Source: Bacteriovoracales bacterium
GTDB lineage: Bacteria > Bdellovibrionota > Bacteriovoracia > Bacteriovoracales > Bacteriovoracaceae
DNA length: 37,948 nt
Direction: 5' to 3'
Assembly (NCBI GenBank): GCA_026713835.1
Contig: JAPONP010000203.1
Span: 1-37,948, forward strand
A model generated the notes under the pieces. That model did no database searches, was not told where the DNA came from, and was given only the letters and a program-made list of their open reading frames with translations. Position numbers and translations under genes: made by a program. This document shows, piece by piece, positions 1 through 37,864 of the stretch (positions are counted from its first letter, which is position 1; the number at the start of each line of letters is the position of its first letter).

Positions 1-27
1 GGTCAGGGCCGATTTTAGCCTTTCTTT

Positions 28-196
28 GTAACTGCTCACCCCCCGGCAATCTTGGCAGTCGACTGCCTCGTCGCTTCCTTGCGACATGCAGGAAGCACGC
101 CTCAGTCGCTCCTCGTTGCCTCCTACCAATCTTATCCGGGTGGAGAACAGTTACCTTGCCTTTATTACAGTTTTTGCCAGAGGTGCGAGCAGTTAC
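28..196 (+). mobile_element. MITE-like non-autonomous element, long copy (169 bp), IS66-like ends
   Basis: Left end GTAACTGCTCACCCCCCGGCAA, right end GGTGCGAGCAGTTAC; the outer 10 bp are perfect inverted repeats. Flanking 8-bp direct repeat CTTTCTTT at 20-27 and 197-204. Same sequence as 30969..31077 except for a 60-bp internal segment. No transposase ORF inside. Confidence 0.85.
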
Positions 197-704
197 CTTT
201 CTTTTGAGCCTATTCGTTTTTTTAGCAAGTTGCGGCCATTTTTCGACCAATCAAATAGCACGAAACACCTTTATTCTTAAAGATGGCTATTTTCACGGAA
301 AATTTGTCAAAACCCGGCTTCCGTTTGAGCAGATGAGTTGGTTTAAAGAGGCCACGTTGATCTATGATCTTAGAATGGGGGCCCTTTCCAAAGATTCTCC
401 CTACTTTCTTTGGCTTTCCTCCAAATCTCAAGAAGATGTGAGAAAATGTCCGTATTTTTATGTCGCCCTTTTGTACTCACAATCTTCTCGCTATATCGCA
501 CATGGGCTCGTTCGCAATCAGTTTGAGATTCAAAAGGCTTCCTGGCAAAGCCTTTCCGATTTTGAGCGTTCACTACGGATGCATCCTCAATTTAAGGAAG
601 AATCATTGCAAAAACACCATGTCAGGGGGGTTTGTTTTCAGTCGGCCCCTAGGGGCACCCTGATCAGTTTACCGGGCTACCCTTCCCAAACAATACTGGA
701 CTGA
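183..704 (+). CDS. Putative lipoprotein of unknown function; N-terminus altered by the repeat insertion
   Basis: ORF 156..704; VRAVTFLLSLFVFLASC gives a hydrophobic region plus lipobox LASC. The GTG at 183 lies inside the mobile element. The ORF is also open upstream to the window edge. Confidence 0.6.
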   Translation: MRAVTFLLSLFVFLASCGHFSTNQIARNTFILKDGYFHGKFVKTRLPFEQMSWFKEATLIYDLRMGALSKDSPYFLWLSSKSQEDVRKCPYFYVALLYSQSSRYIAHGLVRNQFEIQKASWQSLSDFERSLRMHPQFKEESLQKHHVRGVCFQSAPRGTLISLPGYPSQTILD

Positions 705-2689: not shown

Positions 2690-2714
2690 TTTTGCTAGAG
2701 GTGCGAGCAGTTAC
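2690..2714 (+). repeat. Solo right end of the same MITE-like element
   Basis: TTTTGCTAGAGGTGCGAGCAGTTAC is identical to the last 25 bp of the copy at 30969..31077. Confidence 0.75.
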
Positions 2715-29976: not shown

Positions 29977-30960
29977 ATGGGTTTTAAAAGGACACGCCAA
30001 CTCAAAAATCTCTCCCTCGTTTTCCTCTTCGTCGCCTCCTGCTCGGAAGGTATTGGGGATAGGGGTAAAATCATAAGCGCTCAAGAGGAGTTGACGGGAG
30101 GAAATTGTGAGAATGCCGTCCGCATATTGGAAGGCATCGCCGATGGATCGAGAGAGGCCAGATGGTATCAAACCATGGCCTCGGCCGAGGCCTGTTCCGG
30201 CTCCTTTCAAGAACCGAATTTTTTCACCTCCGGCATCAAGGATCTCAACGTGGCCAATCTTGGGCGTTTTTTGCCCGCGATCTCTTCGAGTTCCAACATG
30301 ACGGCACAAGATGATGTGGATTACACCTCTTTGCTCCAGGCCATCAGGACGTTAAAAAACGCAGGCCACACGGATTCCAGCGACGCCGGTTTTACCCTCG
30401 ATCGCCACAGTGAGATTTGGGGGGCCCAAAAGAGTGTGGATATGATTCTTCAGGCGACCTATATGACCGTGGCGGCCTTGGGAATGTATATGAGGTATTA
30501 CGGCAATGGGGATGCCACCGGGGCCAAAGGGGGGGGGAGTGGGAGCAATACTTGCTACTTGGATTACACGGACACCGTGTCCTTGGCGGGCCTGGCCGTC
30601 ACCCCTTCCGTCGCTTCTCCCTGCGTGGGAGGGGGATCGGGGCATTCGGATTTGACCCCGGATTTCGGTACCCTCTCGGGGGAGACTTTGAGGAGGGCCT
30701 GCGAGGGAGTGACCCTTTTCAATATGCTCTTTGCCTTCACGGCCTTTGTGGTCACTCCCGATGATTCCGGAGAGTTGAGTCGGGTGGATGAGACCCTTCA
30801 GGTACGTATCGATGCCTGTAAGGCCCTCGTGGGCACGACGGCCGAGGCCATTTGCTCCACACTCTCTCAAGACCAATGCGAAAGCATTGGGCAAAATAAT
30901 GCGACGGATTTAGAGCGTTATTTTGCCAGCACTTTTGAGCCCTTTCATAGGGGGAATTAG
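29977..30960 (+). CDS. Hypothetical lipoprotein
   Basis: LKNLSLVFLFVASCSEG lipobox; no family recognised. Confidence 0.75.
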   Translation: MGFKRTRQLKNLSLVFLFVASCSEGIGDRGKIISAQEELTGGNCENAVRILEGIADGSREARWYQTMASAEACSGSFQEPNFFTSGIKDLNVANLGRFLPAISSSSNMTAQDDVDYTSLLQAIRTLKNAGHTDSSDAGFTLDRHSEIWGAQKSVDMILQATYMTVAALGMYMRYYGNGDATGAKGGGSGSNTCYLDYTDTVSLAGLAVTPSVASPCVGGGSGHSDLTPDFGTLSGETLRRACEGVTLFNMLFAFTAFVVTPDDSGELSRVDETLQVRIDACKALVGTTAEAICSTLSQDQCESIGQNNATDLERYFASTFEPFHRGN

Positions 30961-30968
30961 GGTGAGAT

Positions 30969-31077
30969 GTAACTGCTCACCCCCCGGCAATCTTGGCAGT
31001 CGACTGCCAATCTTATCCGGGTGGAGAACAGTTACCTTGCCTTTATTACAGTTTTTGCTAGAGGTGCGAGCAGTTAC
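30969..31077 (+). mobile_element. MITE-like non-autonomous element, short copy (109 bp), IS66-like ends
   Basis: GTAACTGCTCACC...GGTGCGAGCAGTTAC with flanking 8-bp direct repeat GGTGAGAT at 30961-30968 and 31078-31085. Confidence 0.88.
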
Positions 31078-31078
31078 G

Positions 31079-32170
31079 GTGAGATGGGCCCTTCTCTTTT
31101 TCTTTTGCCTAGGGAGCGCAAGTGCCGGGAATAGTGAGTTTCGCTATCTTCATCGCTCGAGCAAAGGACTTATGATGGGAGATGCCTACACCACGTTGGC
31201 CTTGGACTCATCGGCCCTTTTTTATAACCCGGCCTTGGCCGCAAGAAATGATCTTGCGGCCATCTATCCTCTTCCCATGGATATGGGTCTTTTTCATCTT
31301 TTGGATGAAAAAGATCGTTTTGACAATGCGGACACCAATGAAGTTTCCGATTTCGTCGATGCGATCATTGGACTTCCCATTCACTTTCGAGCGGGTCTCG
31401 TTCCCACCATTAAATTTGGGGGCTTCACCTTCTCGTCTTTTGCCGTGGCCGATACTCACTTAATCGTTCGGGATAGGATTCATCCCGTGGGAGATTTTTA
31501 CTACAGGTACGACCGGGGATTTGCCCTTGGCTTTGGGTGGATGCCCTTTGGTTCCTCCAGAAGCGGGGGCCCTAGTTTGGCCCTCGGCGCTTCTTTAAAA
31601 TATATCCATCGGGATGCGATCATCAATCAGTACGATATCTTTAGCAAGACGTTTGCCGATCTCATCAGCTCCGATTCCAGGGGACTGGATGGGATCAAAA
31701 ATTCCTTGGGATTGACGAAGGGAAAGGGTTGGGGGGCCGACTTGGGAGTGGATTGGCGTTACAAATGGGGGCCTTCCACTTTGGCCTTGGGGTTTTCGGC
31801 CATGGATGTCTTGGATACGAAAATCAAAACCTACCGGGGATCGGGGCCTATGCCCGATCAACCCATGGCCTTGAGCTTCGGGTCGAGCTTTTCTCAAGTG
31901 TTGAATTCCTTGGCCGATTGGACCGTTTCATTTGATCTCCATCCCCTGGGGGAGAGGATCAAGCTCAAAGAAAAGGCCCATTTGGGATTTCAAATGGGGA
32001 TTCCCTTGGTGGATTTTTTTGTGGGATATAATAATGATTGTCGTAGCTATGGGGTGGCCTTTGATCTTTTTCCCTTTGAGTTTGCGGTGGGGGTCTATGA
32101 AAGGATGTTTGGAAGGGATAAGAAAAGGAGCTTGACGGCCCATTTTAGTCTTTTTGACACTTCTTTTTAG
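31079..32170 (+). CDS. Exported outer-membrane beta-barrel-like protein (FadL/PorV-like)
   Basis: ORF 30923..32170. VRWALLFFFCLGSASAG signal peptide; MMGDAYTTLALDSSALFYNPALAA motif. GTG 31079 lies in the right TSD copy; GTG 30962 is the likely ancestral start. Confidence 0.75.
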   Translation: MRWALLFFFCLGSASAGNSEFRYLHRSSKGLMMGDAYTTLALDSSALFYNPALAARNDLAAIYPLPMDMGLFHLLDEKDRFDNADTNEVSDFVDAIIGLPIHFRAGLVPTIKFGGFTFSSFAVADTHLIVRDRIHPVGDFYYRYDRGFALGFGWMPFGSSRSGGPSLALGASLKYIHRDAIINQYDIFSKTFADLISSDSRGLDGIKNSLGLTKGKGWGADLGVDWRYKWGPSTLALGFSAMDVLDTKIKTYRGSGPMPDQPMALSFGSSFSQVLNSLADWTVSFDLHPLGERIKLKEKAHLGFQMGIPLVDFFVGYNNDCRSYGVAFDLFPFEFAVGVYERMFGRDKKRSLTAHFSLFDTSF

Positions 32171-35939: not shown

Positions 35940-36989
35940 TCATTGCTCAAATCGGCAGCATCGTCCCGTGACCTCTCCAACCGCCGCGCGGATCTCTGTG
36001 ATAGGTCTCCAAACCTCACCTTCCTCGCAATAGGCGTTCCCTGTCCCGGCGTCGGATGCCACATTTTTTGTTTGAACCTCACCGCAGAGGAGTCCTAGGG
36101 TCCCGTCGTAGATATCTCCAATTTGTAGCTTTGAATGATTATTATTATTGCTGACGACTCTAAGGTCTAAAGGAATGCTTAAAATCTCTTTCGTGCAATT
36201 GTTATTGGCATTGCAATCGAGTCCCGGACGGTCTATAAGATTGGTAAATTTCCAAACGGAGATTTTCATCTCGGCCGATCCCCTTTCAAACTCAATATTT
36301 CTTGGAGGATTGGGTGTATCAACGACCTCCATGCTGAAACTGTGGTAGGGCTCAAAATCTTCCACCCACATCGTTCGGATATAGACTTGTCCATTCTCAT
36401 CGAGAGAGCGAATACTGCCACCTTGGGGAGGGCCGATCAGGGTGACATTGCTTCCGGAAGGTGTTCCGGATATTAGGACGCTTGTATCGAGGAGGGAGGG
36501 GGTATTGCGGCAGTTATTGCTATTGGGAGCGCAGGGTTTATTGTCGGGGTTTTGGCCGGGGGTAGTGCCGGGGAGGGAAAGGACGATCCTTTTAATGGCG
36601 CAGGGATCCGCTACGATCGGATTCCTGGGATCCGGATTCCCTACGACCGCATTGCTATCCCGGTTGGTTGTGGCGCAGGTAACTCCGTTGTTGTAGCCTA
36701 CGAGTTGGGCCCTTTGGGTTCTATCGGTACTGGTAGGATCGGTAACGCCAAAGGACTTTTCGATGGTTTCCCTATGGCGAAGCCATTTTTTGATGATAGA
36801 GCGTTGGGTACCGGCGGTTTCCGAGGCCAATGTTCTATTGGTGGCGATTTGGGAGTTTTTTTGCCTTTTCAAATCCATGAGGAGAAAGCCCGAGGTAAGA
36901 CCCATGGCGAGCATCATCTCAAGGATACTAAGCCCGAAGGACTCAAGTTTTAAGGGGGGGGATTTTTTTATTGGACAAATCGACAACAC
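35940..36989 (-). CDS. Prepilin-like protein, tandem paralogue 1
   Basis: ORF 35940..37058, possible GTG at 36989. SFG|LSILEMMLAMGLTSGFLL prepilin motif; C-terminal GRCCRFEQ. Confidence 0.75.
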   Translation of the reverse strand: MLSICPIKKSPPLKLESFGLSILEMMLAMGLTSGFLLMDLKRQKNSQIATNRTLASETAGTQRSIIKKWLRHRETIEKSFGVTDPTSTDRTQRAQLVGYNNGVTCATTNRDSNAVVGNPDPRNPIVADPCAIKRIVLSLPGTTPGQNPDNKPCAPNSNNCRNTPSLLDTSVLISGTPSGSNVTLIGPPQGGSIRSLDENGQVYIRTMWVEDFEPYHSFSMEVVDTPNPPRNIEFERGSAEMKISVWKFTNLIDRPGLDCNANNNCTKEILSIPLDLRVVSNNNNHSKLQIGDIYDGTLGLLCGEVQTKNVASDAGTGNAYCEEGEVWRPITEIRAAVGEVTGRCCRFEQ

Positions 36990-37864
36990 CGTCCCTCCAA
37001 TCTTCCAACGCTTGAATTTGCTCCTGTCGCCGTATTGATCGTTCTTTCCGTATTCCAAAACTCATTGGGGTCCTCGCATAACTGCTCATGAATTTCCTTT
37101 ATATCTCGTTCCCCGCATTGGAGTCCAAATGAGCCGTCTTGAATATGACCCGCCTCAATCGCCGGCGCCAGCGTTCCCCGCTGAGGAATACTTTTGATTC
37201 TTTTTAAATTCAAAGGAAGGGTGATGGTCTCCTTGATGCAGTTATTAGAGCAGTCGAGTTGTGCATTGTCGATGCGGTTGGTGAATTTCCAAATGATAAT
37301 CTTCATATCGGCAGACCCTCGTTCCAACTCAAGTGTGGAGCCGGTGCTTTGATCTTGAAGCCGGAGACTATCCTCATCGCGGCGAAAATTTTCGATCCAC
37401 ATGGCCCTGATATAGGTCCAGCCCGATTGATCCAGGGAGCGAATGAGGTTTCCTTGGGGAGGGGGAGGGCCGACGGGAGGGCCGATCAGGGTGACATTGC
37501 TTCCGGAGGGTGTTCCGGATCTTAGGACGACCTCACCGTTGGGAAGGGCAATTCTTCTGATGGCGCAGGCATCCGCTATGTTCGTAGTGCTATCCCGGTT
37601 GGTTGTGGCGCAAGTGGGATCGGAGCCCACGATTTTAATTCTAGTGGGCGAATCCATACCAAAGGAGTTTTTGATGGCCTCATCTTGGCGAAGCCAATCC
37701 CTTAAGGTGTTTCTAAGACCTGAGACGGACTCTTGGGACACCTTTCTCTTTGAAGTGATTTCGACGTTTTTTTGTCTTTGCAAATCCATGATGACAAGTC
37801 CAGAACTTAGACCTATGCCGATCATGATTTCCAAGAGGCTGATACCCGAAGATTGGAGTCTCAT
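36968..37864 (-). CDS. Prepilin-like protein, tandem paralogue 2
   Basis: SSG|ISLLEIMIGIGLSSGLVIMDLQRQK; C-terminal GRCCRFVQ; shares CATTNRDS, SGTPSGSNVTLIGPP and ERGSA(D/E)MKI with paralogue 1. Confidence 0.8.
   Translation of the reverse strand: MRLQSSGISLLEIMIGIGLSSGLVIMDLQRQKNVEITSKRKVSQESVSGLRNTLRDWLRQDEAIKNSFGMDSPTRIKIVGSDPTCATTNRDSTTNIADACAIRRIALPNGEVVLRSGTPSGSNVTLIGPPVGPPPPQGNLIRSLDQSGWTYIRAMWIENFRRDEDSLRLQDQSTGSTLELERGSADMKIIIWKFTNRIDNAQLDCSNNCIKETITLPLNLKRIKSIPQRGTLAPAIEAGHIQDGSFGLQCGERDIKEIHEQLCEDPNEFWNTERTINTATGANSSVGRLEGRCCRFVQ

Follow-up and report, generated by a model that had tools for sequence, protein, structure and literature searches.

How can a mobile element come to lie between the start codon of a gene and the signal peptide that the gene encodes, and still leave the reading frame open? 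The window, a contig of 37,948 nucleotides from a Bacteriovoracales bacterium, raises this question at 30969-31077, where a 109-bp element is inserted at the very beginning of a protein-coding gene. The features of this insertion, together with the other members of the same family on the contig, are listed below.

29977..30960, forward strand: upstream lipoprotein gene, intact, its stop codon directly before the insertion
30949..30954, forward strand: AGGGGG, the native ribosome-binding site, 7 nt ahead of the GTG start
30961..30968: left target duplication GGTGAGAT, holding the native GTG start codon (30962-30964), as placed by orthologue N-termini
30962..32170, forward strand: 402-codon host gene carrying the MITE in frame; 39 of its codons come from element and duplication and are followed by the signal peptide RWALLFFFCLGSASA
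30969..31077, forward strand: putative IS66-type MITE, 109-bp form, delimited by sequence and genome-wide copies
30969..30980, forward strand: left terminal inverted repeat GTAACTGCTCAC
31008..31009, forward strand: junction where 60 internal bases of the 169-bp form are missing
31024..31035, forward strand: internal end-like sequence GAGAACAGTTAC, recognised from sequence and from a 127-bp relative (G000:C209)
31066..31077, forward strand: right terminal inverted repeat GCGAGCAGTTAC, its first base overlapped by an in-frame GTG at 31064-31066
31078..31085: right target duplication GGTGAGAT, with a second in-frame GTG at 31079-31081
28..196, forward strand: MITE copy 1 (169-bp form), lying in frame inside the signal peptide of a lipoprotein (SGPILAF^LLSLFVFLASCGH)
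3..704, forward strand: lipoprotein gene with copy 1, its start off the contig
2690..2714, forward strand: solitary 25-bp right-end relic of the same MITE family

The 109-bp element has inverted ends of the form GTAACTGCTC(A/G)C (GTAACTGCTCAC and GTAACTGCTCGC), carries no transposase gene and is flanked by a perfect 8-bp duplication. An earlier note had described it from the letters alone as a second MITE copy with its own target duplication, and the coordinates given there (30961-30968 and 31078-31085 for the duplication) are exact. Its ends are identical to those of copy 1, as that note had stated, and the 60-bp internal block of copy 1 is indeed missing, with the junction at 31008/31009. 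The two copies had been proposed to result from independent transposition; in agreement, each of the two has its own 8-bp duplication, GGTGAGAT here and CTTTCTTT for copy 1 (20-27 and 197-204, within the hydrophobic core). No duplication recurs among the both-flank copies, which disposes of the possibility that the 8-bp repeats are part of the element. GGTGAGAT is not A+T-rich, unlike typical targets of this MITE family. A search of 30800-31300 for a promoter or terminator within the MITE gave nothing above chance. The earlier note named neither the transposon family, IS66, nor the in-frame coding consequence.

The insertion point is no more than 8 bases past the stop codon of the upstream lipoprotein gene and directly follows the native GTG start (30962) of a gene for a signal-peptide protein. 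Because 109 + 8 = 117 bp is a multiple of 3 and the phase used contains no stop codon, the frame 30962-32170 stays open, reading VRCNCSPPGNLGSRLPILSGWRTVTLPLLQFLLEVRAVT and then VRWALLFFFCLGSASAGNSEFRYL. In the orthologues from 29 relatives (related genera), the signal peptide lies at or near the start codon, with neither the insert nor any N-terminal extension; the empty site that had been predicted fits these orthologues, and the uninterrupted sequence expected without the element is GGGGGAATTAGGGTGAGATGGGCCCTTCTC. In-frame GTG codons are also present at 31064 and 31079, and initiation at either is possible. If translation runs through the element, precursor peptides such as LPLLQFLLEVRAVT are to be expected.

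The family is abundant in the 2.34-Mb host genome. With up to one mismatch allowed, the 12-base end gave 214 matches compared with 14 for a reversed control; exact matches numbered 87 for the left end and 77 for the right. Both ends were recovered for 37 copies, 36 of them with both flanks. A perfect 8-bp duplication bounds 30 of these 36, all with different sequences, and 33/36 have one within one mismatch; the genome holds many near-identical copies with differing duplications. The draft assembly breaks inside 169-bp copies, and 22 further insertions could be recovered by joining pairs of contig ends on the basis of a unique 8-bp duplication present in both, giving 58 insertions readable on both sides (36 + 22). 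When unpaired ends are included, the genome contains roughly 90-120 insertions. A+T makes up about 73% of the duplications, which are T-rich when read on the + strand of the element; no longer motif was seen.

Long and short versions coexist, as the pair in the window had suggested, in classes of 169, 116, 109, 96 and 89-90 bp that are mostly internal-deletion derivatives. Measured against the 169-bp consensus, the 116-bp form is missing 53 internal bases, the 109-bp form 60 and the 89-bp form 80; the deletion ends carry the short repeats GCCTC, CC and AATCTT, respectively. The 109-bp class is rare: the whole-genome search found only two full copies, both in coding sequence and both in frame, and the 60-bp (20-codon) deletion may have been retained because it preserves the reading frame. 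Copies of the main subfamily are 1-6 of 169 bases off their consensus and their spread is therefore recent. A second subfamily differs at about 49-52 of the 169 positions and retains both open phases. A divergent 127-bp relative (G000:C209, L169:2521-2647), bounded by a 7/8 duplication, lacks the 42-bp right extension, and its right end falls at the internal end-like sequence of the 169-bp form. This relative is likely an ancestral form; GAGAACAGTTAC at 31024..31035 probably once formed the right end of a shorter ancestor, to which the present form would have added a 42-bp right extension carrying a new end. Among 38 further genomes from the family and phylum, none had a copy, and the sequence was not found in viral contigs. 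At one locus (L157, G000:C177), two same-orientation copies flank a gene that we take to be rRNA-methyltransferase-like; the duplications of the 169-bp copy there are mismatched, suggesting recombination between copies.

The origin of the element was traced through its ends. Named genomes were scanned for GTAACTGCTCACCCCCNGG, and 14 stretches matched outside the host genome, two of which are ends of complete elements. The first (L089) is a 1473-bp element in an Acetobacteraceae MAG with a 459-aa frame matching DDE_Tnp_IS66 (E 1.9e-37) and a 6/8 duplication; the other (L095) is a 1487-bp element in a Verrucomicrobia MAG with one transposase matching Pfam DDE_Tnp_IS66 (E 6e-39). The 16-base end GTAACTGCTCACCCCC is common to the MITE and both of these IS66 elements from other phyla. 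In the host's own family, the IS66 elements L230 and L240 have GTAA ends and perfect 8-bp duplications, and L248 has GTAACTGCCC ends. IS66 has been reported with 8-bp duplications and GTAAGCG-type ends (PMC11946415). The GTAA ends matching those of full IS66 elements and the 8-bp target duplication mark the element, as far as sequence can tell, as an IS66-derived MITE. It resembles the single-transposase type of IS66 (about 1.5 kb) in its GTAA ends, its 8-bp duplications and its first 16 bases, identical in L089 and L095, but at 109 bp and without a transposase gene it could at best be mobilised in trans.

No intact IS66 transposase was found in the 99%-complete host assembly. Only fragments at two contig ends are present, indicating that the mobiliser is lost or unassembled; such a gene in the same genome would be needed for present activity but not for MITE status. 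In a search for a parent IS66 in the host genome, no MITE end led into a transposase gene; odd interiors turned up at C15 and at C173, the latter resembling a truncated copy. Several other transposon families also produce 8-bp duplications and, given the missing transposase, a non-IS66 family could be imagined to move the element, its likeness to IS66 ends being coincidence. We find this barely credible, since GTAACTGCTCACCCCC is also the end of two complete, independent IS66 elements from other phyla and the IS66 elements of the host's family share the GTAA ends and 8-bp duplications. An unrelated lineage carries IS66-type MITEs too: in the Gammaproteobacteria MAG Bco_10, MITEs of 142-143 bp share the left end and have 8-bp duplications (perfect in L094, 7/8 in L099).

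We then rebuilt the empty site for the 58 insertions and listed the coding frames crossing each. Ten crossings are near the 5′ end of a frame, in + orientation for window copies 1 and 2, L075, L159, L162, L175 and L177/L160 and in - orientation for L144, L154 and L104/L193; all ten genes look like signal-peptide or lipoprotein genes. Two crossings are interior, in a CtaA-CtaB fusion (L067) and an NFACT/RqcH-like protein (L068). The former protein has UbiA and COX15-CtaA domains (Pfam), and its relatives match both sides but not the insert. The latter has two NFACT matches below Pfam's own cut-off, and family-wide relatives, compared by match ranges, match both halves but not the insert. The fusion at L067 (G000:C26) joins CtaA-like and CtaB-like parts (heme A and heme O synthesis) in one frame, and is apparently present in many relatives too.

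All 12 of the 5′ and interior crossings use the open phase, one of three (chance 3^-12 = 1.9e-6), and all 12 belong to the frame-preserving 169- or 109-bp classes (P = 0.009). Signal-peptide genes make up 10/10 of the 5′ cases, compared with 23% expected from target preference by a matrix built from non-coding insertions (P about 4e-7), signal peptides being called by a simple hydrophobicity rule on rough gene calls and a 5′ list curated by hand. One-flank cases, in genes for ClpS, a Mur ligase, an M23 peptidase, a lipoprotein and a beta-barrel-like protein, agree with the pattern. At 3′ ends, 12/15 insertions are in the phase where the element's G-TAA is an immediate stop (P = 0.0003), leaving the protein tail almost unchanged; two of the remainder are in frame throughout and one, a 116-bp copy, gains a new tail. 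Cases that seemed to break the phase rule were judged on checking to be antisense frames or frames lying upstream, and were dropped. The L037/L168 frame was likewise set aside, as it runs into a gene, presumably that of ribosomal protein S21, whose start lies downstream. Insertion into transcription terminators was also considered and rejected, the folded flanks showing no consistent hairpin and T-run.

These observations are, with good confidence, best explained by a non-autonomous, IS66-mobilised MITE that has recently spread to about 90-120 sites, with the survivors filtered by selection. Acting in trans, an IS66-family transposase would join the element's GTAA... ends to AT-rich targets staggered by 8 bp. 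Surviving insertions would be those that leave the protein unharmed. These fall between genes, at 3′ ends in the phase that makes the element's own G-TAA an immediate stop, or in coding sequence where the length of element and duplication is divisible by 3 and the open phase is used. Within coding sequence, signal-peptide regions would be the preferred refuge, probably because the added N-terminal residues are lost with the signal peptide, or alternatively because an in-frame start (GTG-CGA-GCA-GTT...) supplied by the element lies just ahead of the hydrophobic core. In the 30962-32170 gene, the insertion adds 39 codons between the native GTG and the signal peptide. Observed directly are the ends and the duplications, the copy number and size classes, the ends shared with complete IS66 elements, the phase and class bias, the in-frame position in this gene and the absence from orthologues; mobilisation in trans, translation of the inserted codons and the selective filter itself are what we infer.

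The concentration in signal peptides might instead reflect active targeting, with a transposase that prefers the T-rich stretches of signal-peptide coding DNA. The A+T-rich duplications, T-rich on the element's + strand, point in this direction, as does the position of copy 1 in CTTTCTTT within a hydrophobic core. However, GGTGAGAT itself departs from this composition, the matrix-weighted expectation already allows for target preference and reaches only 23% of 5′ hits, and a bias in target choice cannot account for the open-phase and size-class biases. We therefore consider insertion bias highly unlikely, and the pattern is best read as a selection filter rather than targeting.

Little credence is also due to exaptation, by which the copies would be positively selected as regulatory or leader elements supplying start codons or N-terminal prefixes to exported proteins. 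The right end, GTG-CGA-GCA-GTT-AC (MRAVT), does place a plausible start and a charged residue before about nine signal peptides, and the open phases persist in the divergent subfamily. Against this, the majority of copies lie outside coding sequence, the native start is still upstream in the both-flank + orientation cases on complete flanks, the element is absent from every relative tested, and the copies, at 1-6 differences, are too young to show conservation. A further proposal is that the ends are adapted for coding DNA, with a stop at each end, open middle phases and a start at the right end, making the element a mobile N-terminal prefix on which host genes now depend for translation or export; this we regard as speculative and rather unlikely. 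Filtering of a recently mobilised MITE by selection suggests how such elements can spread without wrecking genes.

In-frame coding repeats are best known from Rickettsia. There, Rickettsia palindromic elements (RPEs) are repeats of about 150 bp that lie in frame within unrelated conserved proteins (PMC10969869). The MITE is likewise in frame and open in unrelated proteins, but it has clear transposon ancestry and target duplications, its copies are mostly outside genes and its 5′ coding sites are signal peptides; it works like an RPE in behaviour alone and is not classed as one. The enterobacterial ERIC/RU-1 and the Yersinia YPAL/RU-2 are MITE-like repeats with open frames fused to genes, and RU-2 makes up part of one gene's signal peptide (PMC2759123, PMC2229807). 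Those are single cases, whereas the pattern described here recurs in about ten genes, with tests for phase, size class and target preference. MITECca01 of Cardinium is a similarly young, high-copy MITE (169 copies) of one lineage and mostly intergenic (PMC9769881); it differs in being IS982-derived with intact parent copies, and is not known to show an in-frame pattern. No description of an IS66-derived MITE with such behaviour was found in a search of openly accessible papers. What is new is clear IS66 ancestry with duplications, combined with a recurrent and tested concentration in signal peptides. Because the copies are young, plainly descend from a transposon and have duplications that can be measured, the entry of mobile DNA into proteins becomes directly testable, and the suggested role of signal-peptide regions as an insertion refuge is open to checking wherever a genome carries young MITEs.

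Elsewhere in the window, the solitary relic at 2690-2714 sits between a protein-kinase gene and a kinase-pyrophosphorylase gene. A 55-nt direct repeat, 96% identical, occurs at 36426-36480 and 37475-37529 in two adjacent minus-strand reading frames, which are probably tandem paralogues.
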